Origin: Polyangiaceae bacterium
GTDB lineage: Bacteria; Myxococcota_A; Polyangia; Polyangiales; Polyangiaceae
Reading direction: 5' to 3'
NCBI GenBank assembly: GCA_020849655.1
Contig: JADLFU010000306.1
Location: forward strand, 1 to 37,051
Length of the DNA stretch: 37,051 bases
A program made the position numbers and the translations under genes. The notes under the pieces are model-generated. The model worked only from the letters and a program-made list of their open reading frames with translations, did not search any database and was not told the DNA's origin. Positions 13,544 to 33,472 of this stretch are shown here, one piece after another; position 1 is the stretch's first letter, and each line of letters begins with the position of its first letter.

Positions 13544-14110
13544 CTACCCGAGCGCGCGCGACCAGAGCAGCCTGACGCCCAGCGCGACGAGGACCAGCCC
13601 GCCGGCCGCGTCGAGCCTCGGGCCGAGCAGCGCGCCGAGCCGGCGCCCCGCGAGCAAGGCGGCCGCGGAGGTGACGGCCGTGACGCCGCCGATCATCGCG
13701 ACCGCCGGCGCGAGCGCGGCGCCGAGCATCGGCAGCGTGAAGCCCACCGCGAGCGCGTCGACGCTCGTCGCCACCGCGAGCGCGGCCATCACGCCGAGCC
13801 CCCACGGATCGCGCCCGTCTGCCTCCACGTCCTCGGGCCGCGCGCGCGCCTCGCGGAGCATCTTCACGCCGAGCACGAGGAGCAGCGCGCCGGCCAGCCA
13901 GGGCGCCCACGCCGCGACGTAGCCGCCGACGCGCGCGCCGATCGCCCACCCGACGGCGGGCATCAGCGCCTGCGCGCCGCCGAAGAACGCGGCCACCATC
14001 ACGACGTGCCGCGGGCGCACGACGGCGCAGGCGACGCCGCGCGCCGCGGAGACCGCGGCCGCGTCCATCGCGAGGCCGAACGCGAGCAGGGCGAGGGCGC
14101 CGAGCGTCAC
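13544..14110 (-). CDS. mntP: Manganese efflux pump MntP
   Basis: A 188-residue six-span membrane protein of the MntP family, which exports Mn2+ from the cytoplasm. The length equals that of E. coli MntP. The duplicated motif of the family is seen as LAMDAAAVS (D16) in the first half and TSVDALAVGF (D117) in the second, carrying the acidic residues needed for transport. The GTG at 14110 overlaps the stop of the histidine kinase gene (GTGA), so the pump is the last gene of a CpxP-like/two-component operon. E. coli mntP is controlled by MntR and a yybP-ykoY riboswitch; neither is visible here. Two-component control is therefore suggested by context only. Confidence 0.9.
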   Translation of the reverse strand: MTLGALALLAFGLAMDAAAVSAARGVACAVVRPRHVVMVAAFFGGAQALMPAVGWAIGARVGGYVAAWAPWLAGALLLVLGVKMLREARARPEDVEADGRDPWGLGVMAALAVATSVDALAVGFTLPMLGAALAPAVAMIGGVTAVTSAAALLAGRRLGALLGPRLDAAGGLVLVALGVRLLWSRALG

Positions 14111-15417
14111 GCCGACCTCTCGTCCACCGCCGGCGACCGGCGCACGTCGAAGCCGATGATCGCGCCCCCTCCGTCGGCGGCCCGCGCGAACACGCCCCCG
14201 CCATGCGCCTCGGCGATCCTGCGCACGAGCGACAGCCCGAGGCCGACCGAGCCAGGCTTCTCGCGGCCGCCCGAGCCGGGCCCCTCCGCGCGCTGCGCGC
14301 CGAACGGCTCGAAGATCCGTGACGCGTCGGCGGGATCGACCCCGGGCCCGCGGTCTCTCGCCTCGACGCGCAGCACGCCTGGTCGCGGCGACGAGATCGT
14401 CAGCTCGAGGAGCCCCTCGCCGTGCTGCTCGGCGTTCGACACCAGGTTGCCGATCGCGCGGCCGAGCAGCGCGGGGTCTCCGAGCACGACGCGATCCTCG
14501 ACGTCGGCGGAGAGGCGCGTCACGTCGACCCCGCGCTTGTCGAGCACGTCCGCGGCGAGCGCGCCGAGATCGACCGGCACCGGGCTCTCCGCGCCGAAGT
14601 CGAGCCTCGAGCCCGCGAGCAGATCGGCGACCAGCGCGTCGACCTCGGCGACCTCCGCGTCGAGCTTGTCGAGCGCCGACGCGTCGCCGCCGCGCGACAG
14701 CTCCGTCAAGAGGCGCATCCGCGCGAGCGGCGTGCGGATCTCGTGCGACACCGCGGCCAGCAGCGCCCGCTGCGTCTCCAGCTGCTTCTCCGCGCGCGCC
14801 GCGAGATCGTTCAGCGCGTCGGCGATCGCGGCGACCTCCGCGTCGTCGCTCGAGGTCCGGGTGATGCGCGTGCCGAGCCGCCCACGCCCGAGATCCTCGG
14901 CCACGCGCGAGAGCGCATGGAACGGCCGCGCGAGGCGCCGCGCGAGCAGCGACGCCGACAGCCACAGCACGAGCGCCACCGCGGCGACGGGCGCGAGGAT
15001 GCGGGCCGGCCCAGGCCGGACGCGCTCCCCGCAGACGACGATCCTCCCGAGCACGTCGTGGCCGCGGCGCACGTCCGTCGAGAGCCCGTGCTTGCCGCAG
15101 CGCCCGCCGAAGACCGCGAGCGGCCGCCCTCCGACGTCGACGAGGTTCACCGAGAGATCGAACCGCTCGGCCACGTTCTTCGCGAGCGCGTCGCGCGCCG
15201 GCGGGTCGTCCCACACGCGCGCGAGCTGGTCGGACGCGAGGTTGCGGAGCCGGCCCCAGTCGCGCCGCCACGCCGCGCCGGGCGCCGCGCCGCCGAGGGA
15301 CGACGCGACGACGCCCGCGAACATCGCGACGAAGATCGCGAGCGCGAACCACACGAACAGGCGCCGCTGCAGCCTCCGCCGCAGGAACCCGGCGACGCCG
15401 CGGGGCCGCTCACGCAT
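14107..15417 (-). CDS. Sensor histidine kinase (CpxA/EnvZ-like, two membrane spans)
   Basis: A 436-residue membrane kinase. TM1 lies at about 20-42, followed by a roughly 95-residue periplasmic domain containing two cysteines (C107, C129), then TM2 at about 138-160. HAMP follows to about 210, then HisKA with SHEIRTPL (H225). The ATPase domain has the N box NLVSNAEQH (324-332), the G1 box DRGPGVDP and the G2 box GSVGLGLS (389-396). All key residues are present. The gene overlaps the response regulator gene by 8 nt at its start and mntP by 4 nt at its end. The periplasmic CpxP-like protein of the same operon is the natural candidate for controlling it. The periplasmic cysteine pair could sense redox or metal, which is inference. 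Confidence 0.92.
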   Translation of the reverse strand: MRERPRGVAGFLRRRLQRRLFVWFALAIFVAMFAGVVASSLGGAAPGAAWRRDWGRLRNLASDQLARVWDDPPARDALAKNVAERFDLSVNLVDVGGRPLAVFGGRCGKHGLSTDVRRGHDVLGRIVVCGERVRPGPARILAPVAAVALVLWLSASLLARRLARPFHALSRVAEDLGRGRLGTRITRTSSDDAEVAAIADALNDLAARAEKQLETQRALLAAVSHEIRTPLARMRLLTELSRGGDASALDKLDAEVAEVDALVADLLAGSRLDFGAESPVPVDLGALAADVLDKRGVDVTRLSADVEDRVVLGDPALLGRAIGNLVSNAEQHGEGLLELTISSPRPGVLRVEARDRGPGVDPADASRIFEPFGAQRAEGPGSGGREKPGSVGLGLSLVRRIAEAHGGGVFARAADGGGAIIGFDVRRSPAVDERSA

Positions 15418-16093
15418 CCTTGGCCATCACGTAGCCGATGCCGCGGACGGTCTTCAGCACGCGCGGCGATTTCGGATCGTCGCCGAGCTTCTGCCGCAGG
15501 TGCGAGATGTGCACGTCGACCGTCCGCTCGCCGACGGTGACGTCTCCCCTGCCCGCCTCGGAGAGCAGCGACTCGCGCGGCACGACGCGCCCCGCGCGGC
15601 GGGCGAGCGCGAGCAGGATGTCGAACTCGATCCCCGTGAGCTCGACGTCCCGCCCGCCGCGGCGCACCGCGCGCGCGCTCACGTCGAGCTCGATCCCCGC
15701 GACGACCACGCGCTCTCCCTCGGCGTCGGGGCTCGCGCGCCGCAAGACCGCCCGCAGCCGCGCGAGCAGCTCCCTCGGCGAGAAGGGCTTCGGCAGGTAG
15801 TCGTCCGCGCCGAGCTCGAGGCCGACGATCCGATCGGCCTCGTCTCCCTTCGCGGTGAGCATGAGCACGGGGATGCGGCTGTCCTTGCGGATCTTGCGCA
15901 GCACGGTGACGCCGTCCTCTCCGGGCATCATCACGTCGAGCAGCACCGCGTCGAACACGTCGCGCCCGAGCAGCGCGAGACCGCGCGCGCCGTCCGGGGC
16001 GTGCGTGACCTCGAACCCGTGCCCCACGAGGTAGGACGCGATGAGCTCGACCAGCCGCGGATCGTCGTCGATGAGCAGGATGCGGACGGCCAC
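15410..16093 (-). CDS. Response regulator, OmpR/CpxR family
   Basis: A 227-residue two-domain regulator. The receiver domain has the acidic pocket IDDDP (9-12), phosphoacceptor D53 in LLDVMMPG, T80 in LMLTAKG and K102 in PKPF. The C-terminal winged helix contains the recognition segment ERTVDVHISHLRQKLG and ends with VRGIGYVMAKD, typical of OmpR-type regulators. It is made from the same transcript as its partner kinase, with an 8-nt overlap. Closest in overall pattern to CpxR/RstA-type proteins, which fits the CpxP-like gene two positions upstream. It lies 9 nt downstream of the 54-residue membrane protein gene. It probably also controls its own operon. Confidence 0.93.
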   Translation of the reverse strand: MAVRILLIDDDPRLVELIASYLVGHGFEVTHAPDGARGLALLGRDVFDAVLLDVMMPGEDGVTVLRKIRKDSRIPVLMLTAKGDEADRIVGLELGADDYLPKPFSPRELLARLRAVLRRASPDAEGERVVVAGIELDVSARAVRRGGRDVELTGIEFDILLALARRAGRVVPRESLLSEAGRGDVTVGERTVDVHISHLRQKLGDDPKSPRVLKTVRGIGYVMAKDA

Positions 16094-16102
16094 GGCGCGA
16101 CT

Positions 16103-16267
16103 CTACCTCGGCGGCGCGTGGCGGGCGTGGTGAGCGCACGCGCACGCGTCGCGCGACACCACCGCGCAGCCCCGGTGCCACCGGCGCACGCGCGCCGCCT
16201 CGACGCCGAGCCCGAGCACGACGCCGAGCCCGAGCAGCGCGACGACGATCTTCTCGCGCCGGGTCAC
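16103..16267 (-). CDS. 54-residue single-span membrane microprotein with Cys/His-rich tail
   Basis: A short gene of 54 codons found by reading the gap between the CpxP-like and response-regulator genes. GTG 16267 overlaps the upstream stop as GTGA, the same coupling used by other gene pairs here, and the TAG lies 9 nt before the regulator gene. The protein begins MTRREK, has one hydrophobic helix (IVVALLGLGVVLGLG), and then a tail with three cysteines and five histidines (CAVVSRDACACAHHARH). Such a tail could bind metal ions. No known family is recognised. Expression is inferred from position and coupling only. Confidence 0.6.
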   Translation of the reverse strand: MTRREKIVVALLGLGVVLGLGVEAARVRRWHRGCAVVSRDACACAHHARHAPPR

Positions 16268-16710
16268 GCCGCGCTCCATCGGCCGTGGTCGCAGCGCCCC
16301 CGCGGGCCGTGCTCGATGGCCGACGCGAGCCTCCGGCGCTGGTCCGGCTCGAGGATCTCGTGGGCCCGCGTCACGCCGAGGCTCGCCGCCTCGCGCAGGT
16401 GCTGGAGCTTCTGCTCGAGCGACGCGAACGCCCGCGCGAGCGCCGCCTCGTCGACGCGCTCCCCGCGGAGCGCCGCCGCGATGTCACGGCGCGCCTGCCG
16501 CGCGTCGTCGCGCGCGTCACCGCCCGCCGAGAGCAGCTCGTCGAGCACCGGGGACAGCTCCTTCTCCTGCCCCGCCGTCGTGTCGAGGTACCGATACAGC
16601 GCGCGCTTCGGGCTCCCCCACCCGACCCCGCGCCAGCCGCGCCAGCGCGAGCGCCGCAGCACCCTGAAGATCCCGTACGCGCACGCCGCGCTCACCAGAA
16701 AACCGATCAT
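16264..16710 (-). CDS. CpxP/Spy-like periplasmic metal-sensor family protein
   Basis: A 148-residue protein. ATG 16710 is chosen over longer in-frame starts because AGGAGA precedes it at good spacing and it opens directly into a membrane segment (residues 2-20). The body is strongly helical with many charged residues. It carries the pattern EILEPDQRRRLASAIE near the end, matching the LTxxQ-type motif of the CpxP/Spy/ZraP superfamily (periplasmic chaperones and stress or metal sensors). Unlike CpxP it appears to stay anchored by its N-terminal helix. It ends HGPRGRCDHGRW, with possible metal ligands. As first gene of the operon it probably sets the state of the downstream histidine kinase. Confidence 0.72.
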   Translation of the reverse strand: MIGFLVSAACAYGIFRVLRRSRWRGWRGVGWGSPKRALYRYLDTTAGQEKELSPVLDELLSAGGDARDDARQARRDIAAALRGERVDEAALARAFASLEQKLQHLREAASLGVTRAHEILEPDQRRRLASAIEHGPRGRCDHGRWSAA

Positions 16711-16774
16711 CGCCTTCTCTCCTTCTCCGCGCCGCGCACCCTGCGCGGCGTGAGCGGCACGTTGCGTCCCCGAT

Positions 16775-16803
16775 GTGAAGCGCGCCCCGGAGACGGCGTG
16801 AAG
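16775..16803 (-). promoter_or_regulatory. Possible direct-repeat regulator site upstream of the CpxP-like operon
   Basis: GTGAAG occurs at 16775-16780 and again at 16798-16803, with starts 23 bp apart, about two helical turns. OmpR-family regulators bind tandem half-sites, so autoregulation is conceivable. Two hexamers are weak evidence. Confidence 0.2.
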
Positions 16804-16864
16804 AAGCGCAAACGGCGGCGAGGTGGCGCCCGCGCCTCTCAAGAGACGCGGCCCGTCGCCAGGG

Positions 16865-17257
16865 TCACCCCGCGACGGCGACGGGCGACCGGTCGACCGC
16901 GACGACGCGCAGCGTGCGCATGCCGCCCGGCATCTCCCAGTCGATGCGCTGCCCCACGCGCAGCCCGAGGAGCGCGCACCCGAGCGGCGCGAGCACCGAG
17001 ACGCGGCCCGCGTCGGAGTCGGCGTCGCGGGGGAACACGAGCTGCAGCCGGCGGCGCTGGCGCGTCCCGACGACCTCGTACTCGAGCTCGCTCTCCATCA
17101 CGACGACGTCGTACGGCACCTCGGCGAGCGGAACGATCTCCGCGCGCTCGAGCTCGGCCAGCAGCGACGCCGCGACCTCCGATCCGGCGGAGGCGAGCAG
17201 CGGTGACAAACGGTCGCGATCCTCGGACGCGACGATGATGGGAGGGGTGGACGGCAT
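16865..17257 (-). CDS. rnk: Nucleoside diphosphate kinase regulator Rnk (GreA/GreB C-terminal domain family)
   Basis: A 130-residue protein of the Rnk family, related to the C-terminal domain of the transcript-cleavage factors GreA/GreB. Rnk binds RNA polymerase but lacks the coiled coil that enters the secondary channel in Gre factors. The N-terminal 45 residues are helical. The conserved FKBP-like core is clear: VPYDVVVMES, LVFPRDADSDAGRVSVLAPLG and ALLGLRVGQRIDW. A weak GAGG ribosome-binding site lies 8 nt before ATG 17257. The gene is preceded by a candidate promoter at 17436-17463 with a leader of about 170 nt and stands alone between two operons. Confidence 0.88.
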   Translation of the reverse strand: MPSTPPIIVASEDRDRLSPLLASAGSEVAASLLAELERAEIVPLAEVPYDVVVMESELEYEVVGTRQRRRLQLVFPRDADSDAGRVSVLAPLGCALLGLRVGQRIDWEMPGGMRTLRVVAVDRSPVAVAG

Positions 17258-17475: not shown

Positions 17476-18507
17476 TCACGCGCGGCGGCGCAGGAGGGAC
17501 GACAGCATCCCGAGCATCGCCACGCCCCACGCCGCGATCGCCACGAACACGAACCCCCGCGGGATGACCCGCAGGTACGGCGCGTCGACCGCCTGCGACA
17601 GCCGGATGGTGCACACCGTGTACATCCCGAGCGGGAACACGGCGCCCCAGTACGCAGGATCGTAGCGGAGCGGGAACCTCCGCGCGACGTGCCTCCACGC
17701 TCCGAGGATGACCAGCATCGGGATCCACCACGTCGCGGTCGCCCACCAGAGCAGCGTCATCCCGCGGACGAACGGCAGCACCTCCATCAGCACCGGCGAG
17801 CTCGGCGCCGCAGCCACGAGCGACGCGCCGCCGAGGGTGGCGATCGCCGCGGCGCCCATGTTGATCCAGTACGGCGGCGCGAGATCGCTCGGGCTGAGCG
17901 TGAAGAACGTGTAGCGATAGAAGATGAGCGAGATGATCCAGATGTAGAGCATCGAGCCGCCCAGCCACATCGTCAGCGACAGGAGGAGCGCCTCCGCGGC
18001 GCCCGCCCCCATCGCCGGCGCGAGCTGCGCCCCGAGCACCGCGACCGCGTGCGAGGCGACCACGATCAGCAGCCAGCCGCCGTGGATCCCGTCGGCGAGC
18101 GACGGCTTCTCCCGCTTCACAGTCAGGATCGTGATGATCGTGTAGGTGAGCACCACCCACAGCACGATCGTCAGCCCCCACAGCCCGAGCGCGACGCCGT
18201 GGAGCCCCCCGACGACCAGCGACTGCGAGCCGAGCACGGAGCTCGCGGCGACCATCGTGAAAAACCCGACCGAGCGCCCGTGGTGCAACAGATCGGCGAC
18301 CACGCGCGCGCGATAGAAGACGACGCGCGCGAGCGTCAGCGCCCACAGCGCGGCGAAGAACACGAGGTTCAGCCCGTACAGCGCGATCGCCAGCCGGTGC
18401 ATCCCCTCGAGGTGCGCGGCGATGGAGACGATCCCCGTCGCCATCGTCAGCGCGAAGTAGGCGGGGTTCAGCTCGGCGAGCGCGGACGCCGGGCGGGGCT
18501 CGGTCAC
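17476..18507 (-). CDS. TDT-family (TehA/Mae1/SLAC1) anion channel or transporter
   Basis: A 343-residue integral membrane protein with about ten spans. GTG 18507 is chosen because it overlaps the upstream stop as GTGA; a longer frame from ATG 18552 would overlap more. The family pattern starts with LNPAYFALTMATGIVSIAAH and includes a central helix pair FFTMVAASSVLGSQ and the aromatic-rich MTLLWWATATWWIPMLV. TDT proteins include the tellurite-linked TehA, malate carriers, the sulfite exporter Ssu1 and the plant SLAC1 nitrate/chloride channel. As the last gene of an operon for a molybdenum oxidoreductase similar to nitrate reductases, a role in moving an oxyanion substrate or product (nitrate, nitrite or sulfite) is plausible but unproven. 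Confidence 0.85.
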   Translation of the reverse strand: MTEPRPASALAELNPAYFALTMATGIVSIAAHLEGMHRLAIALYGLNLVFFAALWALTLARVVFYRARVVADLLHHGRSVGFFTMVAASSVLGSQSLVVGGLHGVALGLWGLTIVLWVVLTYTIITILTVKREKPSLADGIHGGWLLIVVASHAVAVLGAQLAPAMGAGAAEALLLSLTMWLGGSMLYIWIISLIFYRYTFFTLSPSDLAPPYWINMGAAAIATLGGASLVAAAPSSPVLMEVLPFVRGMTLLWWATATWWIPMLVILGAWRHVARRFPLRYDPAYWGAVFPLGMYTVCTIRLSQAVDAPYLRVIPRGFVFVAIAAWGVAMLGMLSSLLRRRA

Positions 18508-18719
18508 TCTTCGCGGAGGAAGCGCAGGAGGCCGAGGTTCAGGAGCAGGCACGCGGCGCTCGCGCCGAGGCCGGGCAAGACGACGCTGCTGTCACCGCCG
18601 AGCCACGCGTTCATCGTGGCGGTGAGCAGCCAGAGCTGCAGGACGACCAGCGTCAGCACGAAGCACACGATCCCGTAGACGATCGTGGTGCGCTGCTGGC
18701 GGGAGAAGCGGCGCTTCAT
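18504..18719 (-). CDS. Small two-span membrane protein (71 residues)
   Basis: A 71-residue protein with two hydrophobic helices (about residues 12-33 and 46-66) joined by a short loop containing LGGDSSVV. The N-terminus is basic (MKRRFSRQQR). It resembles the small uncharacterised membrane proteins seen next to Rieske and ferredoxin genes in other bacteria (DUF6755-like is my best recollection, not verified). Its ATG lies just 1 nt after the Rieske stop, and its own stop overlaps the TDT start. A role as a small subunit or assembly factor of the oxidoreductase is likely from position. Confidence 0.7.
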   Translation of the reverse strand: MKRRFSRQQRTTIVYGIVCFVLTLVVLQLWLLTATMNAWLGGDSSVVLPGLGASAACLLLNLGLLRFLREE

Positions 18720-18720
18720 C

Positions 18721-19350
18721 TCACACCGTCCGCTCGTCGACGCCGACGGCGAACACGTCGTCGCCCTCGACCACCAGGTTGATCTTCGGCAGCGGTCGCG
18801 GCGGCGGGCCGGCGATGTTGCGCCCCGTCTTCAGATCGAAGAACCCCTCGTGGCAGGGGCAGTGCAAGACCCCCTCCTCGAGGCGCGGCACGACGGCGCA
18901 CGAGAGGTGGGTGCACGCCTGGCTGTACGCGAGCAGCTCACCCTCCCTGGTGCGGATGAGGAGGCAGGGATCGTGCGGCGTCGGGTACTGGAACGTCACC
19001 GCCGATCCGCGCGCGAGCGCCGCGGCCGACGCGACCCGGAGCCGCGGGGGCGGAGTGCGGCGGCTGCGGACGAGATCCTGCGCGGCGATCCACGCCTGCC
19101 CCGCGGCGAACGCGCCGCTCGTGAGCACGAGGAACTTCGCGAAGTCACGGCGCGCGACGTACTGATCGATCGGCCAGTCGATCGGGAAATCGCGGCGCCA
19201 CTCGGGCTGCTGCGCGCGCGGGGCGCCGTCGGGAGCCTGCGAGATCTCCGTCTCGTCGCGGACGTCGCGGAGCGGCCCCACGAGCGCGCCTGCGCCCGAG
19301 CCGTCCACCGCCGGATCGAGGCGGCGCGAGGCCTTGTCGTCCTGTCCCAT
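18721..19350 (-). CDS. Rieske [2Fe-2S] protein with internal twin-arginine signal anchor
   Basis: A 209-residue iron-sulfur protein. The cluster-binding motifs are CTHLSC and CPCHEGFFD near residues 145-170, providing two Cys and two His. About 75 residues in, ARRDFAKFL is followed by a hydrophobic segment, matching a Tat signal with RRxFxK preceded by an unusually long cytoplasmic leader. The Rieske domain should thus face the periplasm, anchored in the membrane. The start is ATG 19350: GGAGG (19362-19358) lies 7 nt upstream, whereas GTG 19356 would leave no spacing. It follows the ferredoxin gene directly and precedes a small membrane protein gene. It probably carries electrons between quinol or a periplasmic partner and the molybdenum enzyme complex. 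Confidence 0.88.
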   Translation of the reverse strand: MGQDDKASRRLDPAVDGSGAGALVGPLRDVRDETEISQAPDGAPRAQQPEWRRDFPIDWPIDQYVARRDFAKFLVLTSGAFAAGQAWIAAQDLVRSRRTPPPRLRVASAAALARGSAVTFQYPTPHDPCLLIRTREGELLAYSQACTHLSCAVVPRLEEGVLHCPCHEGFFDLKTGRNIAGPPPRPLPKINLVVEGDDVFAVGVDERTV

Positions 19351-19352
19351 GC

Positions 19353-20030
19353 TCACACCTCCACCTCGGCGAAGGGATCGTCCGCGGGCGGGAGCGCCGC
19401 CGGCGCGCCGCCGAGCACCCGCAGCCGCGCGTGCCGCACCTCGGGTCGATCGTCCATCGCCGCCGTGACGTCGAGCAGCGGCGGCGGCGCCTTCGTCTTC
19501 GGCGCGAGCACCTTCACGCGGGTCGTGATGATCTGCTCGCCGAAGCGGAAGCGGTTGGTCGGGGTCGACTGCGGGCGCAGCTCCTCGAGCTCCTCCCTGG
19601 TGCCGAAGAACAAGGCCTGGCTGGGGCAGACGGTCGCGCACATGGGCTTCTTGCCGATCGACGTGCGGTCGTAGCACATGTCGCATTTCATCATCAGCTG
19701 GCGATCGGCGTACAGCTCGGGCACGCCGAACGGGCACGCGACGACGCAGTTCCCGCAGGCGATGCAGCGGGGCTTGCGCGCGCTCTGCACGACGCCGTCG
19801 CCGGTGCGCTTGATGGCGTCGGCCGGGCACACCTCGGCGCAGGTCGGCTGCTCGCAGTGCATGCACACGACGGGCACCGTCTGCACGCTGGCGCCGCGGT
19901 CGACGTACTCGAGGTGAATCATCGACTCGCCCTTGTGGGTGTCGCACTCGCTGCACGCCTGGACACAGGACTGGCAGCCGATGCAGCGGCTCGGATCGAC
20001 GAAGAACTGTAGCTGCGCGGGGACGGGCAT
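19353..20030 (-). CDS. 4Fe-4S ferredoxin-type electron-transfer subunit (DmsB/NrfC-like)
   Basis: A 225-residue protein with four clusters' worth of cysteines. They occur as [11 protein letters not shown] near residue 16, [26 protein letters not shown], and [21 protein letters not shown]. This is the usual layout of beta subunits that wire a molybdopterin catalytic subunit to a membrane partner. No Tat or Sec signal is seen, so it is cytoplasmic or carried by a partner. The C-terminal 80 residues after the last cluster are variable and end PFAEVEV. It starts 13 nt after the molybdenum subunit gene and ends next to the Rieske ATG, clearly within one operon. The function as an electron relay is well supported. 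Confidence 0.92.
19358..19362 (-). promoter_or_regulatory. Ribosome-binding site deciding the Rieske start
   Basis: GGAGG on the minus strand, 7 nt from ATG 19350 and only 1 nt from the alternative GTG 19356, favours the ATG. Confidence 0.6.
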
Positions 20031-20043
20031 CAGGGCGCCTCTC

Positions 20044-22311
20044 TCACTGCTGGGGTTCGAGCTTCGTGGAGTAGGCGGGCGGGGCGGCGGCCCTCGCGAC
20101 CCGGCACGCGCACACCTTGTACTGCGGGATCTTGCTCATCGGATCCTGCGCGGCGACCGTCACGCGGTTCACGCTCTTCTCGCCTGCCCAGTGATAGGGG
20201 ATGAACACCGTGTCGGGGCGGATGGTCGTCACCACCATCGCGCGCACCGTGATCGTGCCGCGCCGGGTCTCGCAGGTCGTCCAGTCGCCGTCCTTGACGC
20301 CGAGCTTGTCGGCGAGGCGCGGGTGCAGCTCGAGGCGCGGCTCGGGGTACTGCTTGACGAGCGGCCCGATGCGCCGCGTCTGCGTCCCGGAGAGGAACTG
20401 GCTGACCACCCGCCCGGTCGTCAGCATCAGCGGGAACTCCGCGTCGACGTCGTCCGCTGGCGCGCGGTAGTCGGCGACGACGAAGCGCGCCTTGCCGTCC
20501 GGGAAGTAGAACCTCCCGGCGCCCTTCGCGATCGGGTTGTAGCTGTCGGGGAGAAAGAGCCGCGGCGTGCCGGGGTTGTCGGGCGTCGGCGCGCCGGACG
20601 CCGGATCGTGCGCCGGACAGGGCCAGAACACGCCCATCTGCGCCTCGAGCTTCTCGTAGGTGATGCCGGAGTAGTCCGAGATGCCCCCCGCGGAGGCGCG
20701 GCGCAGCTCCTCGAAGATCTCGCGCGGCCCGGAGAACGTGAAGCCGTGGGGCCGCCCGAGCGCGCGCGCGAGATCTTGCACGACGCGCCAGTCCTCGCGG
20801 GCCTCGCCTGGACAGTCGATAGCCTTGTTGATCTTGATGACGCGCCCCTCGACCTGCGTGACGGTGCCCTCGTCCTCCTCCTGGAGGCTGCCGGGGAGGA
20901 TCAGATCGGCGTGGCGCGCGGTGTCGTTGAGGAAGAAGTCGACGGCCGCGAAGAACTCGAGCTTGTCGAGCGCGCGCGCGACGAAGCCGCTGTCGGGGAG
21001 CGAGATCTTGGGGTTGAAGCAGAACGCGACCAGCGCCTTGATCTCGCCGGCGTCGATCTTGCGGAACAGCTCGTAGGCGTCGACGCCCGGGCCGGGGATG
21101 CTCGCCTCCTCGACGCCCCACACGGAGGCGATGTGCTTGCGGTGCTCGGGGTTGGAGATATCGCGCATGCCGGGGAGCTGGTCGCACTTCTGACCGTGCT
21201 CGCGGCCGCCCTGGCCGTTCGCCTGCCCGACGATGGTGCCGTAGCCGCTGTGCGGCTTGCCGATGCGCCCCGACGCGAGCACGAGGTTGATGGAGCCGAG
21301 GACGTTCTGCACGCCGATCGAGTGGTGCTCGATGCCGCGCGCGTGCAACATGAAGCTCGACCGCGCCTGGCCCCACAGCTCGGCGGCGGCGCGGAGGGAC
21401 CGCTCGGGGACGCCGGTGACCTCGGCCGTATGGGCGGGGGTCCACTGCTTGCAATACTCGGCGACGGCGTCGAACCCGACAGTGTGCGCGTCGATGAACT
21501 CGCGGTCGATCCGGCCCTGCTCGATCATCAGCGACAGGACGCCCGCGAACAGCGCCGCGTCGCGCCCGGGCTTCACCGGCAGGTACAGATCGCAGGTGCG
21601 GGCGATCGGCGTGATGCGCGGATCCTGGACGATGACGCGGGCGCCGCGCTCGCGCGCCTGCCACACGTAGTTGGTCGTGATGGGCGAGCACTCGGCGACG
21701 TTCGAGCCGGCGATCCAGATGACCTCCGTCTCCAGCATGTCGGCCCAGGGGCTGGTCACGCGGTCGATGCCGAACGCCTTCTTGTTGCCGACGCCGGCGC
21801 TCACCATGCAGAGGCGCCCGTTGTAGTCGATGAACGGCGTCTTCAGGCACACGCGGGCGAACTTGCCGAGCAGGTAGGTCTTCTCGGTCGTGAGGCTCGC
21901 GCCGCCGAGCACGGCGACCGCGCCGGGGCCGTGGGCCTCCTGCAGCCGCGCGATCTCGCGGGCGGCGCGCTCGATCGCGGCCTCGTACGCCATCGGGCGG
22001 AACCCGCTCGGGCTCGACGGATCGCGCGCGAGCGCCGTCAGCAGGCGGTCAGGGTGGGAGCCTTGCAGGTAGCGCTTCACGCCCTTCGGGCAGAGCATCC
22101 CGCGGTTGAAGGGGAACTCCTCCCACGGCTCGAAGCCGATGACCTCGTTCTGCTTCACCTTCAGCTGGATGCCGCACTGTTGCCCGCAGAAGCAGCAGTG
22201 GGTCTTGACGAGCTTGTCGGGCTGCTCGGTCGTCTTGCCGCGGACGTTCTCCGAGAGGTGCGGGCCGTACGCGTGGGTGATGGCGAGCTCGTCGACGGGG
22301 ATCTTCGCCAT
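20044..22311 (-). CDS. Molybdopterin (bis-MGD) oxidoreductase, assimilatory-nitrate-reductase-like
   Basis: A 755-residue catalytic subunit of the DMSO-reductase superfamily. The N-terminal [4Fe-4S] motif is C39, C42, C46 and C74 (C-x2-C-x3-C-x27-C). The Mo-ligand region reads [10 protein letters not shown] with C168, the pattern of NarB/NasC nitrate reductases. MGD-binding segments include [34 protein letters not shown], and the C-terminal domain [12 protein letters not shown] with PYHWAG. No twin-arginine signal is present, so the subunit should be cytoplasmic. Neighbours are a cytochrome-b-like membrane protein (3-nt gap), a multi-cluster ferredoxin, a Rieske protein and an anion channel. 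Nitrate is the best-supported substrate by sequence type, but formate and other oxyanions cannot be excluded; an assimilatory enzyme would not need a membrane quinol partner. Confidence 0.9.
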
Positions 22312-22314
22312 CGC

Positions 22315-23373
22315 TCAGCCCTCCTCGCCCTTCGGCGCGGACGCCCACAGCGCCGACTGCGCGAGCCCGAACATGGCCCGTCGGCAGCGCGGACAGACCT
22401 CCTGGTAGTGGCCCTCGCCCCCGGCCAGCTCGTAGCGAAACCCGAGCTCCCGCTCGACCGTCATCAGATCTCTCACCATCGTGGCACCTGCATAGGGCGC
22501 GTCGCAGCGGCGGCAACGCGCCTGCTCGCCGCTCGTGGACTCGTCCTTGTAGAAGCTGACGCCGAGCTGCGCCGGCCGCTGGAACACATGGAACAGCTTG
22601 CCGAACGGCAGCCACAGCAGCGTGACGATCACGGTGACCGCGTGCAGGATGGCGAGGAACGAGTACGCGTAGCCCTTCATCCAGGTGTAGCTCACCGTGA
22701 GCATCAGCCCGGTGACGCTGATGCCGAGCAAGAGCACGAGCGGCAGGATGTCCTCGCCGAACTGCTGCACGGCGGCCGCGCCCTGGTCGATCATGCGGCG
22801 GCGGAACGCGAGCATCACGCCCGCGATGACGAGGAACGACGCCCAGACGAGCCCGTGGAAGATCAGGAACGCGAGCACGGAGTGCACGGCGAACTCGCCC
22901 GCAGGGATGCCGAACACGAGCGTCCGGTAGTGGTCGATCTTGCCCGGCACCGTCTCGAAGTGCACCCATCCCCAGACGAGCGGGAACGTGATCGCCGCGC
23001 CGAGCACGCAGCCCCACATGATGAGCCAGTGCGCCGTGCCGCGGAGCTTCCCGCGGACGAAGATGAAGCGGTTGGCGGCGAACTCGACGACGGCGCGCCG
23101 GGCCGCCGTGAGCACGTTGCGCGGCAGGCCGCGCGCCGCGAAGAACACCTGCCAGCCGCGCCGCCAGTACAGGCGCGTCGGCGGGCGCTGCAGCCACATC
23201 ACGTAGCGGTACGTGATGCCGAACACGGCGAAGAGCGTCGCGAACGTGTAGCCGACCAGCGCCGCGTCGAAGTGCGCGAGCTTGCGCGAGCCCGCGACGA
23301 TCAAGACGGCGAGCGTGGCGGTGGCGGCGACTCCCCAGGCGGTGGCGCGGGCGCGGCCGGACGGTTGGGCCAT
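22315..23373 (-). CDS. NarI/HdrE/DsrM-like cytochrome b membrane subunit with C-terminal CxxC pairs
   Basis: A 352-residue protein with about six membrane spans. Histidines lie within or next to helices ([34 protein letters not shown] and [10 protein letters not shown]), as in quinol-oxidising b-type cytochromes such as NarI or HdrE/DsrM. After the last span a cytoplasmic tail carries [10 protein letters not shown] and [11 protein letters not shown], two CxxC pairs about 45 residues apart. These could bind zinc or an iron-sulfur cluster; the common NarI and HdrE/DsrM forms do not normally carry such a module. It is the first gene of the molybdenum operon, with a candidate -10 just before its ATG. 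Quinone interaction and heme b binding are inferred. Confidence 0.75.
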
Positions 23374-23857: not shown

Positions 23858-24906
23858 AGCCGCCCGCCTATCGTGAGGCCCGCGCCGCCGGGGCCGACGC
23901 TGGGGGTGACGCGGAGCGCGGCGCCCTCCTTCTTCTTGCCGCCGATGACGAACATCGCGGCGCCCGCGCCGGCCACGACCGCGCCGCCAATCCACAGGAC
24001 GTTGGTGATCTTCTCGAGGCGCTCGACGGAGTCGGCGTCGCCGCGGCTCGACGGGGGGCAGCGGTCCGCGGTGCAGCTCGCCTCGACGTCGGAGAGCTTG
24101 CTCTTGCCCATCAGCCCGGTGATCACGCCGCCGAGGATCATCGCGCCGCCCACGCCCATCGTCACCAGCCCCGCCGTCCGAAGCGGCGCGCGCGCGGGAG
24201 GCGGAGGCGTGGCGCTCGGCTCGGCCGGGGGCGGCGCCGACGCGACGGGCGCCGCGGACGCCGAGGCCGTGGGGGATGCGGCGCCTGCCCCCGCGGGGTG
24301 AAAGTCGAAGCGCTTCTCCGTCACCTGCCCGGCCGAGAGCTCCACCTCCCAGCGGGCCGTCTCCGCGCCGCGCTTCGCGGTGACGACGTGGCGGCCCGCC
24401 TGGAGGCGGAGCGTCACCTTGCCGCTCGCCGGGATCGCGTAGGAGTTGACGGCGGTCGAGCCGTTCGCGCGCTGGCGCTGGTCGACGAGCGCGACCTCGC
24501 CCGCGCCGCTCGCGGTGAGGGTGACCGTGGCCGAGTCGCCCTTCATCAGCCCGACGTCGCGGGTCACCTGCGCGCGCTCGGCGTCTCCAATCTCGGAGCC
24601 GCCGCCCGCGAGGTACCGCTCGTAGGCGTCGATGGCGTCGGTGAAGCGCTCCAGCTTCATCGCGGAGAGCCCGAGGTTGCCGAGGATCTTCCACGACGGG
24701 CTCGCCGCGTACGCGCGGTTGAACGCGCGGAACGCCTCCTCGTACCGGGCGCCGTCGGGATCGTTGAGGAAGTCGACGCCGGCCTTGAAGTGGCGCTTCG
24801 CGTCCTCGGTGACGGGGACGTCCGCCTTCGGCTGCGCGAGCGCCGGCGTGGCGAGCGAGGCGCAGAGGACGAGGGAGATCGTGGAGACGGCGCGGCGCGC
24901 GTTCAT
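23854..24906 (-). CDS. TPR/PEGA-like envelope protein with two membrane segments
   Basis: A 350-residue protein. ATG 24906 overlaps the upstream stop (ATGA) and starts a signal peptide ending PALAQ. A TPR-like helical region spans about 35-120, with EEAFRAFNRAYAASPSWKILGNLGLSAMKLERF cut here into its elements AFRAFNRAYAASP and NLGLSAMKLERF. A PEGA-like beta region (about 125-205) has GRHVVTAKRG. An Ala/Pro/Ser-rich linker leads to two hydrophobic spans (about 250-275 and 310-330) flanking a short loop with a CTADRC pair. The order TPR, PEGA-like, Pro-rich linker, paired helices is common in myxobacterial envelope proteins of unknown role. It ends with a Gly-rich segment. No enzymatic motif is seen. 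Confidence 0.72.
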   Translation of the reverse strand: MNARRAVSTISLVLCASLATPALAQPKADVPVTEDAKRHFKAGVDFLNDPDGARYEEAFRAFNRAYAASPSWKILGNLGLSAMKLERFTDAIDAYERYLAGGGSEIGDAERAQVTRDVGLMKGDSATVTLTASGAGEVALVDQRQRANGSTAVNSYAIPASGKVTLRLQAGRHVVTAKRGAETARWEVELSAGQVTEKRFDFHPAGAGAASPTASASAAPVASAPPPAEPSATPPPPARAPLRTAGLVTMGVGGAMILGGVITGLMGKSKLSDVEASCTADRCPPSSRGDADSVERLEKITNVLWIGGAVVAGAGAAMFVIGGKKKEGAALRVTPSVGPGGAGLTIGGRL

Positions 24907-27900
24907 CGGGACACCAGCTTGATGAGGTTGTCGGAGGAGCTCCAGACGGCGAGGTACGTGCTGGTGCAGGTGGCGACGAGGGAGGCGCCGGAGCTCGCGA
25001 GCACGCGCCGGTTGGTGCCGTCCGTGTTCATCCGCTCGACGGCCGACGCGGTCGCCCAGTAGAAGATACCCGGCGCCAGCGAGAAGTCGTTGATGGCCGC
25101 GCCCACCGCGAAGGTCTGCGGGGCCGGGGAGCCTGACAGCGAACCCTTGACGAGGCTCGACCCCTTCGCCCAGAAGAGGCCGTCGGACTCCGCTCTCAGC
25201 TTCTTCACGGCGACCTCCCCCGAGTACAGCGTCGCCGCGTCCAGGCCCCTGCGCCGGATGGTGTCGTCCGCGGCGACGTAGTAGAAGGTGCCGTTCAGCC
25301 CGTCGCCGACCTTCAGCGAAGTGATGAAGTTCATGTACGCGCAGTTCGCTCCGTTCAAGTTGCACACAACCCCGTTCGAGCCGCCGGCGAGGTGAAGCTT
25401 GCTTCCGACGACGCGGAACACGCCGAGGGGCTCGGTCGCGGGGTTCGAGGTGAGATCTTCAGGTATCTTGCCGTTCCACGCCACCCGCCGGGCCAGGTAG
25501 GACGAGGAGCCGTCGGCGCGGTCGAAGTACACGTAGCCGCTCTGCAGCTGGATGTGCGCGCCGGTCGTGCTGGTGTCCCACATGGTCATCTCCCCCTCGA
25601 GGATGCTCACGCGGTACACGCCGCCGGTCCCCGCGACGTAGACGTTGGTGTCGTCGCAGTCGAGCGCGGCGACGCCGGTGGCGCTCGTCACAGTGACCGG
25701 CGCGCACAGCCCGCCGACGCAGGTGCCCACGCCGCACTGGCGCCCGCAGGCGCCGCAGTTGTTCGGGTCGGTCTGCAGGTCACGGCAGACCCCGTTGCAG
25801 CTGGTCTGCGCGCCGCACGTGCAGGCGCTCATGTTCAGGGCGCAGGCGCTGTCGCAGGTCACCGTGCCCACCCACCCGGCGCCCAGCTGGCTGCACGAGG
25901 CGCCCTTCAGGTCGGCGCCGTCACACGCCTCCGAGCCCTGCGCCTGCCCGTTGCCACAGTACTGACACCCTGACGTGTCGAACGCACACTGTCCGTTGCA
26001 GAGGAGGGACCCCGTCGCCGAGGACTTGCCCACCACGGAGGCGCACGTCGCGCCGCCATAGTCGGTGGTGTCGCACGCCTCGCTGCCGTTCTTCACGCCG
26101 TCGCCGCAGCTGGGCGGCGCGCTGCAGCCGGAGGTGTCGAACGCGCAGGTGGACGCGCACTTCAAGGTGCCGACGCTCCCGGCGCCGACGACCGAGGCGC
26201 ACGTCGCCGAGCCGAGCGTCGCGCCGTCGCACGACTCCCCGCCGTCGATCGCGCCGTCTCCGCAGTAGTGGCAGCCGGCAGGGCTGAGCGTGCAGTCGGG
26301 CTGGCAGGTCGGCGCGCCGGTCGCCGGTTTGCCGACCACGCTGGTGCAGGTCGCCCCGCCCAGGTCCCCGCCGTCGCAGGCGTCGTTGCCGTTCTTGACC
26401 CCGTCGCCGCAGCCGGGCGGCGCCGAGCAGGCGCTGGTGTTGAGCTTGCAGTCGATGCCGCAGGACAGCGTCCCCGTGCTCCCGGCCCCGACCACCGACG
26501 CGCAGGTCGCCGTCCCCACGCCGCCGTCACACGCCTCACCCGAGTCGACGGCGCCGTCGCCGCAGAAGTGGCACCCGGCGAGGTCGAGGGTGCAGTTCGT
26601 CTTGCACGCCAGGTCGCCCGTCGCCGCCGGCTTGCCGGTCGCCGTCGCGCAGGTGTTCGCGCCGAGGCTCGGGCCGTCGCATGATTCGCCGGCGTTGATG
26701 ACCCCGTCGCCGCAGCTCGCCGGCGGGGTGCAGCCGGCGCTGTCGAATTTGCAAAGTGAAGAGCAGGCGAGCGTGCCGGTGCTCCCCGTGCCGACCACGG
26801 ACGCGCACGTCGCCGCCCCCACGCCGCCGTCGCAGCTCTCGGGCGAGGTGACGACGCCGTCGCCGCAGTAACGACAGGCGCTCACGTCGAGGGAGCAGTC
26901 CGCCTTGCAGGTGAGGCTGCCGGTCGCGCCCTGCCCCACCGCGGTCGCGCAGCTCGCCCCCCCGAGATCGGCGCCGTCGCACGCCTCCGTCCCGTTCCTC
27001 TTGCCGTCGCCGCAGCTGACGGCGGCCGAGCAGCCCGAGGTGTCGAGCGCGCACGACGCCGAGCAGACGACCTTGCCCTGGCTCCCGGCCCCCACGGCGG
27101 CGGCGCAGGTCGTCACGCCCACGTCGCCGTCGCACGCCTCGCCGGCGTCCACCGCGCCGTCGCCGCAGTAGTGACACTGGGAGAGGTCCAGCGTGCAGTT
27201 GCTTCGGCAGGTGGGCGTGCCGGTCGCGGGCCGGTTCAGCGCGTCGCTGCAGGATTTTCCGCCGAGGTTGGCGCCGTCGCACGCCTCGCCGTTGTTGAGC
27301 GCGCCGTCCCCGCAGCTCGCGGGCGCGCTGCACGCGGACGTGCGGTACGTGCAGGTGGTCGAGCAGGAGATGGCGCCCACGCTGCCCGCGCCCACGAGGG
27401 TCGCGCAGGTCACCGCGCCCACGCTGCCGTCGCACTCCTCTCCGTTGTCGACTGTCCCGTCACCACAGTAGTGACAGCCGGAGGTGTCGAACTTGCAGTC
27501 GCTCTTGCAGGCGAGCACGCCGGTCGCCGCCTGACCCACGGCGGCGGCGCAGGTCTTGTTGCCGAGATCCTGGCCGTCGCACAGCTCGACGCCGCCCCGC
27601 GCGCCGTCGCCGCAGACCGGCGCTCCCCCGCCCACGCCGGCCTGGCCGCCGCCGGACTGCCCTGCCGCGCCCGCGCCCCCCTGCCCCGCGCCCGCTTGCC
27701 CCGCGCCGCCCTGGCCCGCGCCCGCTTGCCCCGCGCCGCCCTGCCCCGCGCCGCTCTGCCCCGCGCCCGCTCTGCCCCGCGCCCGCCTGCCCAGCGCCGC
27801 CCTGGCCTGCGCCGCTCTGCCCCGCGCCCGCCTGCCCCGCGCCGGCCTGCGACTGCCCTGCGTGGCCCGCGCCCGCCTGGCCCGCGCCGCCGCCGGGATG

Positions 27901-31234: not shown

Positions 31235-33472
31235 TCACTTGACAGTGAAGCGGTGGATGGGGGACGCCGCCCGGTGCTGACAGTCGCCGACCGTCGCGTA
31301 CCACTCGTACACCCCGCCGGCGACCAACCCCGACGCGGACGCCGTCGCGGTCTGCCCCGAGACCGCCGCGCCCTTCACCTCGGTCCACGCGCCCCCGGCG
31401 CCCGTGAGCGGCACCTTCAAGGTGAACTCGCTCGCCGCGTCCGTCTGCCACTTCTTCAGCGACGGCGAGTACGTCCGCACCGTCAGCTCGCCGCTCTTCG
31501 GCGAGAACTCCCAGATGCGCAGGTAGCCCGATCCTCCCTCGTACTTCGGCACGTCGTCGTTGGGATCGCTGTCCTTCCCCAGAAACTGATAGTCGGCCAG
31601 CATCGTCGTCACCTTGTGGCCGGTGGCGGCGTGGGTGTCGGTGCGGCGCTCCTCGTCCGAGACGTGCCCGCAGGTCATCAGGTGGACGTTCCGCGCGTCG
31701 GCGACGCTGTCGTAGAGCGCCTTGCCCTGGTCGATCCACGCGGCGCCGCCCTTGATGATGCCGTGCGAGTTGACGATGCCGAAGGCGTCGGGGTGCGCGT
31801 CGAAGATCGAGCGCCCCCACTTGATGGCCGCCTGGCGGTACGCGGTGTCGTCCGCCACGTACTGGTAGCTGACGACCACGAGGTCGAGGTCCCCCGCTCG
31901 AAACCTCACGAAATTCTCGTCGTTCTTCTTCGATCCGTAGTGCCCGCCGTAGTACGAGCGCGCCGAGAACCGGTTGATGCCGAAGTACTTGTTGAAGAAC
32001 GCCGTGTTCCCCGTGACGGAGTCCCCGTCGAGGTTCTTGTTGTCGTGGTTGCCGATCGTCATCGCGAAGGGGATGCCCTCGGCGAGCCCCGTCGTCTTCG
32101 GGTCCTCGAGGGCGCTCATCGCCTGGTCGGCCACCTTCCACTCCGACTCGTTCTTCTGACCCGTGTCGCTGATGTCTCCGTTGTGGATGACGCCGATGAT
32201 GTTGTACGCCGCTCGGTTGTCGACGATCCACTTCGTCTGCGCGTAGAAGTGCTTGCGCCAGTCGTTGTGCTCCTCGGTGTAGTACTGGGTGTCGGGGAGC
32301 GCGACGATGGTGAAGTCGTCCGCGTCGGTGATGGCCCTCACGTAGAACCTCGGCTCGAACACCGCGCTGTCGGCGTCGGTGAAGGTCACCGAGAGCGTCG
32401 TCGTGGGCGCGGGGACGGCGGCGCCCCCCGTCGGGGCTCCTGCGGAGAGCACCGGCGGCGCGCCGAGATCGATGGGCGAGCCGGGGCTCGTCGTCGTCGC
32501 GCCGACGAGCTTGCCGTCGGCGGCGCCGACCGAGTCTGAGGCGTCGCCGGCCTCGAAGGACCAGGCGGCGACCAGCCCCGTCGTCGCGCCGATGGTCTTC
32601 CACGCGCCGTCCTTGATCTCCGCTGCGGTGCGCGCGGTGCTCCAGACGCGGACGTCGTCGATCGCGCCGTGGAACGCGCCCGACGGCGCGCCCGTCGAGT
32701 CGAGCCCGGCCCCGATGCCGAAGTGCTGCACGCTGTCGGCCCGCGGCTTCGCGGCGGCGGGGACCGCGCCGTCGAGCGCGCCGTCGAGGTACAGGCGGAG
32801 CTCCTTGCCGTCGAAGGTGGCGGCGACGTGGTGCCACTCGCCGCGGGTGACGTCGGTGGCGCCGACCAGCGGGTGGTTGTCGCCGTCGTCGGTGTCCTCG
32901 AAATCGACCCCGAGGCGCTCGCCGGCGAAGCCGAACGCGTAGTTGCAGTCGACGTTGGTGCCGTCGCTCTCCCCTCGACCCTTGCCGGCGATGGGCACGA
33001 GGTGCAGGCCGCCGACGCCGGTGCTCATGGTCTTGCCGGCGCCGTCGCGGCGCACCCACGCCTCGACGGTGAAGGTGGAGAGCGAGAGCGCCTTCACGTT
33101 CCCCATCGCCACGTGATCGTCGGCGCCGTCGAGCAGCAGCGCCTTCGTGCCTGGCTTGCCCGCCGGTCCCTCGCAGCTCGCCCCGCCCGCCGCCCCCGAC
33201 CCGCCCGCCTTGCCCGCAGCGCCACCCGCGCTGGGGTAGCCCGCGGACGCGCCCGCGGCCCCTGCCGCCGTGGCACCGCCCGCAGACGCGCCCGCCGCGG
33301 TGCCGCCCGCCGACGCGCCCGCGGCTCCGGCTGCCGTGGCCCCGCCCGCGCCCACGCCCGCCTGCGACGGATCGTTCGACGTGGCGTCGGCGCCGCCTCC
33401 GCAGGCGACCAGCGCGGACCCGAGCCCGAGCAGGGCGAGGAGGGGAAGGACCGTGAGGGAGAGCGCTCGCAT
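31235..33472 (-). CDS. LamG-domain metallophosphoesterase lipoprotein
   Basis: A 745-residue lipoprotein with signal peptide ending LVAC (C24). A long Ala/Gly linker (AGGATAAGAAGAS-type) runs to about residue 105. A LamG/concanavalin-like domain (about 107-305) contains FTVEAWVRRDG, WHHVAATFDG and IDDVRVW. A calcineurin-like phosphoesterase domain (about 390-640) follows with DTQYY, HNGDISD and GNHDN and the late CGH, so the dimetal site is complete. The C-terminal 80 residues form an immunoglobulin-like strand domain ending HRFTVK. It is predicted to hydrolyse phosphate esters outside the cell while the LamG domain binds glycans or surfaces; the substrate is unknown. The stop is one base away from the convergent HupE-like stop. 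Confidence 0.88.
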   Translation of the reverse strand: MRALSLTVLPLLALLGLGSALVACGGGADATSNDPSQAGVGAGGATAAGAAGASAGGTAAGASAGGATAAGAAGASAGYPSAGGAAGKAGGSGAAGGASCEGPAGKPGTKALLLDGADDHVAMGNVKALSLSTFTVEAWVRRDGAGKTMSTGVGGLHLVPIAGKGRGESDGTNVDCNYAFGFAGERLGVDFEDTDDGDNHPLVGATDVTRGEWHHVAATFDGKELRLYLDGALDGAVPAAAKPRADSVQHFGIGAGLDSTGAPSGAFHGAIDDVRVWSTARTAAEIKDGAWKTIGATTGLVAAWSFEAGDASDSVGAADGKLVGATTTSPGSPIDLGAPPVLSAGAPTGGAAVPAPTTTLSVTFTDADSAVFEPRFYVRAITDADDFTIVALPDTQYYTEEHNDWRKHFYAQTKWIVDNRAAYNIIGVIHNGDISDTGQKNESEWKVADQAMSALEDPKTTGLAEGIPFAMTIGNHDNKNLDGDSVTGNTAFFNKYFGINRFSARSYYGGHYGSKKNDENFVRFRAGDLDLVVVSYQYVADDTAYRQAAIKWGRSIFDAHPDAFGIVNSHGIIKGGAAWIDQGKALYDSVADARNVHLMTCGHVSDEERRTDTHAATGHKVTTMLADYQFLGKDSDPNDDVPKYEGGSGYLRIWEFSPKSGELTVRTYSPSLKKWQTDAASEFTLKVPLTGAGGAWTEVKGAAVSGQTATASASGLVAGGVYEWYATVGDCQHRAASPIHRFTVK
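33180..33370 (-). repeat. Ala/Gly-rich linker repeat in the phosphoesterase lipoprotein
   Basis: Tandem AGGATAAGAAGASAGG-like units follow the lipidated cysteine and would form a flexible spacer between the membrane and the folded domains. Confidence 0.7.

Follow-up and report, generated by a model that had tools for sequence, protein, structure and literature searches.

What does a molybdenum enzyme resembling assimilatory nitrate reductases do when it is encoded with a quinol-type cytochrome b and an exported Rieske protein? The question is raised by a locus from a Polyangiaceae bacterium, found on contig C306 of a draft genome of 6.56 Mb whose nearest named relatives belong to Myxococcota; the whole stretch of DNA analysed, 37,051 nucleotides long, is called the window here. 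The preliminary description had placed six genes between positions 17476 and 23373, and its coordinates and gene descriptions are correct:

22315..23373, minus strand: cytochrome b, NarI/HdrE-like and predicted to be diheme, 352 aa, ending in a four-Cys tail
20044..22311, minus strand: Mo-bisPGD catalytic subunit, 755 aa, with one [4Fe-4S] cluster and no export signal (Pfam and NCBIfam)
19353..20030, minus strand: four-[4Fe-4S] electron-relay subunit, DmsB/FdnH/NarH-like, 225 aa (TIGR02951)
18721..19350, minus strand: Tat-anchored Rieske [2Fe-2S] protein, bc-type (Pfam Rieske)
18504..18719, minus strand: DUF6755 small membrane protein, 71 aa, with two predicted TM helices (PF20540 and hydropathy)
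17476..18507, minus strand: TDT/SLAC1-family anion channel, a probable nitrate/nitrite channel (PF03595)

The six genes run from 23373 down to 17476 with intergenic gaps of 3, 13, 2, 1 and -4 nt, and these short gaps and the overlap make a single transcription unit likely. The start of the TDT gene is a GTG overlapping the DUF6755 stop, with an alternative upstream GTG at 18552. Matches over the Pfam cut-offs were obtained for the Mo subunit (Molybdopterin, Molydop_binding and Molybdop_Fe4S4), the ferredoxin (Fer4_11), the Rieske protein (Rieske), DUF6755 (105.8 bits on PF20540, curated cut-off 27) and the channel (SLAC1; 176.9 bits on PF03595, curated cut-off 27.9). The Pfam scan gave no family for the cytochrome b, including no match to Nitrate_red_gam, and a search of PDB sequences with the TDT protein returned no match.

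To find relatives, named genomes were scanned with an alignment of Mo subunits, and the best 80 of 584 matches were taken as loci. Among these best 80, relatives of the operon occur in at least 11 phyla: Acidobacteriota (23), Planctomycetota (17), Myxococcota (9), Chloroflexota (9), Verrucomicrobiota (5), Armatimonadota (5) and Actinomycetota (4), with one locus each in Gemmatimonadota, Bdellovibrionota, Bacteroidota and Hydrogenedentota and four without a phylum; since most relatives are MAGs, single phylum assignments may be wrong. Cultured carriers include Lacipirellula limnantheis, Anaeromyxobacter oryzae and Algoriphagus aquaeductus, and the operon is also carried on Deinococcus plasmids. 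The four core genes (cytochrome b, Mo subunit, ferredoxin and Rieske) lie together on one strand in all 67 loci with enough flanking sequence, so their grouping is not due to chance. Their order is conserved across phyla (65 of the 67 loci, the exceptions being L102 and L103, where ferredoxin and Rieske precede the cytochrome). The combination had been called unusual; the set is widespread and not unique to this bacterium. Within the host's phylum, 10 of 235 genomes encode DUF6755, always next to the cytochrome-Mo-ferredoxin-Rieske set. A tblastn search placed it near 57 of 90 loci, which is a lower bound because the protein is so short. In the open-access literature we found no paper on DUF6755 and no published description of the six-gene operon, which may be described elsewhere; the related systems found there were the haloarchaeal Nar, the Caldithrix Nap with a Rieske/cytochrome b pair, and Methanoperedens. 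The operon is apparently an undescribed and widespread variant of membrane nitrate reductase.

The family of the catalytic subunit was addressed with a tree of 106 sequences, in which the operon-linked Mo subunits form one clade (SH-aLRT 99). Next to it come a divergent version from L027 and L125 (98), which are the same gene and where the four-gene operon is present too, and then NasC-type enzymes (96) of Paenibacillus, Actinomycetota and Deinococcus grandis. NapA, NarG, proteobacterial NasA and the formate dehydrogenases (FDHs) lie apart. Deeper branching in this tree is uncertain, because the search was quick, some branches are long and the AioA root is very distant. The phylogeny proposed in the preliminary description as a check thus returned a separate clade, with no firm placement in a characterised family that has other partners. 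On the NasC model (NF047855) the window's subunit scores 754.3 bits and other members 787-864, below the cut-off of 1100, which one control genome exceeds; the family range is 727-864 bits, compared with at most about 540 for the phylum's other enzymes and the reference NasA. Judged by these scores, the operon Mo subunits are a tier under true NasC and above the phylum's other enzymes. Other identities tried were rejected: NarG (53.5 bits, TIGR01580 cut-off 1084), NapA (252 bits, cut-off 904, and an N-terminus without a Tat motif) and FDH alpha (536.7 bits, TIGR01591 cut-off 666, with the FDH-type His and Arg absent).

In the window, the active site contains RLCMVSAG and a second stretch of 13 residues. 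Cys168, Met169, Gln363, Arg370 and Glu371 are invariant in 87 of 87 Mo subunits, giving the motif pairs Cys168-Met169, Gly362-Gln363 and Arg370-Glu371, and Cys-Met and GQxNxQGGRE likewise occur in all 87. In the reference alignment, FDHs mostly have Cys/Sec-His with RGQNNVQG, and nitrate reductases mostly have Cys-Met with TGQP..RE; at the FDH-type positions, the operon subunits have Met for His and Val or Thr for Arg. In one reference FDH subfamily (Pantoea, Deinococcus) the pair is Cys-Gln, so not every FDH can be recognised by the His criterion alone. The active-site residues of the operon subunits are of the nitrate-reductase type. No Tat-like motif is found at the start of 86 of the 87 Mo subunits, the single match lying in an over-extended start, or of any of 84 ferredoxins, and no NarJ-like chaperone gene is present within the operon.

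Model scores and structural matches bear out the labels NarI/HdrE-like, DmsB-like and assimilatory-nitrate-reductase-like that the subunits had been given. The cytochrome b has six TM helices, with both the N and C ends predicted to be cytoplasmic, and its AlphaFold2 model (from a 68-sequence alignment) has a mean pLDDT of 94.5. The closest structural match to this model is mycobacterial EtfD (Z 11.7, 4.6 Å over 235 residues), followed by E. coli NarI at Z 10.7-11.1. Both stand above the unrelated structures, which start at Z 9.1, although helical bundles can reach a Z of about 11 through their arrangement alone. A profile search gave weak matches to NarI, in which the stretch H244...H262 was aligned with the NarI segment carrying His187 and His205, as well as weak matches to the QmoC and TcuB models; phmmer with the single cytochrome b against PDB sequences returned no match. 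His115, His244 and His262 are found in 81 of 81 sequences and His173 in 74. In the C-terminal tail, Cys287 is invariant (81/81) and Cys290, Cys327 and Cys330 nearly so (79/81). Helix order and the positive-inside rule would place the two heme pairs on opposite faces of the membrane. His173 is replaced by Asn or Gln in L085, L086, L095, L098, L101, L106 and L110, and in these 7 of 81 the periplasmic heme may be different or differently ligated; among these lineages, L085, L086 and L098 have HPP as the transporter. The ferredoxin scores 99 bits on the DmsB model (TIGR02951), its sixteen cluster cysteines are conserved in a 10-sequence alignment, and its nearest solved structures are FdnH and PsrB-type NrfC.

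The role of the Rieske protein is what makes the operon interesting. Its twin arginines (R in 79/80 and 80/80 sequences, across phyla) precede a single, moderately hydrophobic segment. This near-invariant pair, with none in the Mo subunit or the ferredoxin, speaks for a Rieske in the periplasm and a Mo subunit in the cytoplasm, and agrees with the claim of the preliminary description that an unexported Mo subunit and a Tat-anchored Rieske face opposite sides of the membrane. The features of a bc-type Rieske are present: the CTHxxC and CPCH ligands and the disulfide Cys pair in 80 of 80 sequences, and the GPP Pro-loop in 79-80 of 80. The nearest solved structure is the bc-type Rieske of Thermus. 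The Ser and Tyr hydrogen bonds to the cluster are absent, these positions being Gly169 and Phe171 (79/80 each). Loss of these bonds lowers the redox potential of a Rieske cluster, so the predicted potential is low, which suits menaquinol and argues against nitrite oxidation. By its conservation, the Rieske is a near-invariant additional periplasmic redox site with a putative role in the complex, and the suggestion that it takes part in electron transfer across the membrane is possible.

Which substrate the enzyme acts on is indicated by the genes around it. Among loci with enough flank, the transporter slot is occupied by TDT alone in 17, NarK alone in 14, HPP alone in 2 and NarK with TDT in 1, and is empty in 7, three of which have NirB nearby (Fisher p 0.0003 for these counts, kinship ignored). 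For nine of nine tested proteins, the best model of the NarK-type transporter was TIGR00886, at 191-300 bits, all under its cut-off of 311.7. HPP was identified from Pfam, and an HPP protein has been shown to transport nitrite (PMC4137279). In three loci, a NarK-type transporter and the cytochrome b share one uninterrupted frame (L037:6685-8991, L102:6805-8988 and L104:6789-9005), apparently a natural fusion. Genes recurring nearby include NirB/NirD (6 loci: L062, L066, L067, L091, L101 and L110, where they adjoin the operon), NrfAH (3), RIC/ScdA (14-15), Rrf2 (7), NnrS (4) and MobA (5-6). Neither sulfur genes beside the loci nor a cytochrome c gene in the operon recur. The shared TDT/NarK/HPP slot, the NarK fusions and the NirBD, NrfAH, RIC and NnrS neighbours point to nitrate being the substrate and nitrite the product. 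A nitrate or sulfur-oxyanion system had been proposed; the nitrate half is supported by the active site and by NarK, HPP, NirBD and NrfAH, but sulfur oxyanions are not supported. Likewise, the operon does close with an anion channel, but not one that belongs to it everywhere: TDT is an exchangeable accessory, with NarK or HPP instead in many loci. Its presence in this slot suggests that bacterial TDT/SLAC1 channels may serve nitrate or nitrite, which is testable because NarK and HPP occupy the same place.

Taken together, we consider it likely that the operon encodes a membrane-bound (mena)quinol:nitrate oxidoreductase with its active site facing the cytoplasm. We infer that the subunits assemble into one complex, and likewise the substrate, the path and direction of electron flow, and what the Rieske, DUF6755 and the four-Cys tail do. 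In such an enzyme, the NarI-like cytochrome b would oxidise quinol at its periplasmic face, with protons released outside, and electrons would cross the membrane through two b hemes, from the periplasmic pair His173/His244 to the cytoplasmic pair His115/His262. They would then pass through the four-cluster ferredoxin and the catalytic [4Fe-4S] cluster to Mo-bisPGD, where nitrate would be reduced to nitrite. TDT (NarK or HPP elsewhere) would bring nitrate in and/or let nitrite out, and nitrite would go on to NirBD or NrfA or be exported. The Tat-anchored Rieske would add another redox site in the periplasm, close to the quinol site or heme, where it would most likely mediate or gate quinol oxidation or exchange electrons with a periplasmic carrier. 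A bolder version, which we think unlikely, is that the Rieske and the NarI-like cytochrome split the quinol electrons as in bc1, one passing to the Rieske and a periplasmic acceptor while the second travels by way of the hemes and reaches nitrate in the cytoplasm. If true, this nitrate reductase would carry out a Q-cycle-like bifurcation of its own, with a cytochrome b of the NarI type and not the bc1 type.

The same complex could instead be a quinol-linked assimilatory enzyme, making nitrite for NirBD with the quinol pool in place of an NADH or ferredoxin donor. We regard this as somewhat unlikely overall, and it is live chiefly for the NirBD-linked lineages: the catalytic subunit adjoins NasC-type enzymes in the tree and the NirB/NirD neighbours in six loci also fit assimilation, but NrfAH, RIC, NnrS and Rrf2 elsewhere point to dissimilation or nitrosative stress, and in the host, assimilation has a PII-NirB-NasA cluster of its own. 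The respiratory use that the preliminary description had suggested as a possibility would be the more probable one, and for the host we lean to a respiratory or redox-balancing role.

The near-invariance of the Rieske, its Tat motif and its disulfide cysteines indicates that this subunit matters to function, and could also mean that electrons enter or leave through it and not through the quinone pool. The enzyme would then be an oxidoreductase between periplasmic cytochrome c (or a similar carrier) and nitrate or, in reverse, a nitrite oxidase, which NarK and HPP would also serve. This seems quite improbable, given that the low potential predicted for the Rieske is ill suited to nitrite oxidation, that the NirBD, NrfA and RIC neighbours fit nitrite production, and that the operon has no recurring cytochrome c gene. 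Even less probable, to the point that we give it hardly any weight, is a formate dehydrogenase or sulfur-oxyanion enzyme that merely resembles nitrate reductases. Its basis would be the 536.7 bits on the FDH-alpha model and the DmsB- and PsrB-like relay; the score misses the FDH cut-off of 666, however, the FDH-type His and Arg are lacking in 87 of 87 subunits, and it is nitrate/nitrite genes, not sulfur genes, that recur beside the operon.

How does the predicted quinol:nitrate oxidoreductase compare with known systems? The nearest catalytic subunits are NasC of the Bacillus type (NF047855) and its actinobacterial relatives, which share the Cys-Met and Arg-Glu pattern and the lack of an export signal. 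In contrast to NasC, whose partners are the NADH- or ferredoxin-linked NasB/NirB, the subunit here is encoded with a predicted diheme cytochrome b, a relay of four clusters and a Rieske. No NasB/NirB partner is found within the operon, NirB being merely a neighbour in six loci; the NasC-type gene of Paenibacillus adjoins nirB. A 2023 survey of the superfamily treats NasC, NasA and NarB as one assimilatory family comprising nearly a fifth of its members (PMC10100899). Metagenome surveys would label the catalytic subunit as assimilatory (nasA/narB-like) despite its respiratory-type membrane partners, and because the operon occurs widely in groups of soil and sediment (Acidobacteriota, Planctomycetota, Chloroflexota, Myxococcota and others), nitrate respiration or quinol-linked reduction there may be misread as assimilation.

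With NarGHI, the operon shares the architecture of a cytoplasmic Mo subunit, a four-cluster FeS subunit and a cytochrome b that resembles NarI and is predicted to be diheme. Its catalytic subunit, however, does not belong to NarG and presents Cys to the Mo, where NarG has Asp; a Rieske, DUF6755 and the four-Cys tail are added, and NarJ is absent. The haloarchaeal Nar likewise encodes a Rieske (narB) and a cytochrome b (narC) with a nitrate reductase, and a Q-cycle has been proposed for it (PMC2483277). Its catalytic subunit is a NarG of 983 aa and its cytochrome b has 486 aa (PMC2483277), whereas here the catalytic subunit is Nas-type and the cytochrome b is NarI-like, with 352 aa. A Rieske/cytochrome b pair also occurs in the nap cluster of Caldithrix abyssi (PMC5317091). 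On the AioB model the operon Rieske scores 46.4 bits, under the cut-off. AioAB is another Mo-bisPGD enzyme with a Tat-dependent Rieske, but the operon Rieske is closer to the bc-type of Thermus. AioA itself is periplasmic, with no amino-acid ligand to Mo (PMC10100899). The cytochrome b has a predicted fold like that of EtfD, HdrE and QmoC-type proteins (EtfD Z 11.7) and differs from them in standing alone with a C-terminal four-Cys tail and in being encoded with a Mo enzyme. The pairing of a Rieske with a NarI-type module is also informative about the way in which Rieske/cytochrome b bioenergetics is put together.

The same draft genome encodes further nitrate and nitrite enzymes on contigs C69, C93, C252 and C30 (loci L165, L163, L162 and L164): a NarG over its cut-off, a NapA-like protein just under, a PII-NirB-FeS-NasA cluster in which the NasA frame is broken in the assembly, and NrfA. 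With NarG, the NapA-like protein and NasA in the same MAG, the operon complex would be the fourth nitrate reductase there, although some of these genes could be foreign at an estimated contamination of 4.17%. The separate PII-NirB-FeS-NasA cluster makes it unlikely that the complex is the host's sole route of assimilation. Of the phylum's 10 operon-bearing genomes, 4 have a strong NrfA match, which is no clear enrichment. The NapA-like gene adjoins DsrO/DsrP-like genes.

Elsewhere in the window, the minus strand downstream of the operon (14107-17257) encodes a Rnk/GreA-type protein, a Metal_resist-family protein, an OmpR-type response regulator and a histidine kinase. Also on the minus strand are a Cys-rich protein of 910 aa with repeated CGDG-type units and no Pfam family (24906-27635) and a protein of 745 aa in which a calcineurin-like phosphoesterase domain comes after a laminin-G/concanavalin-like domain (31238-33472).
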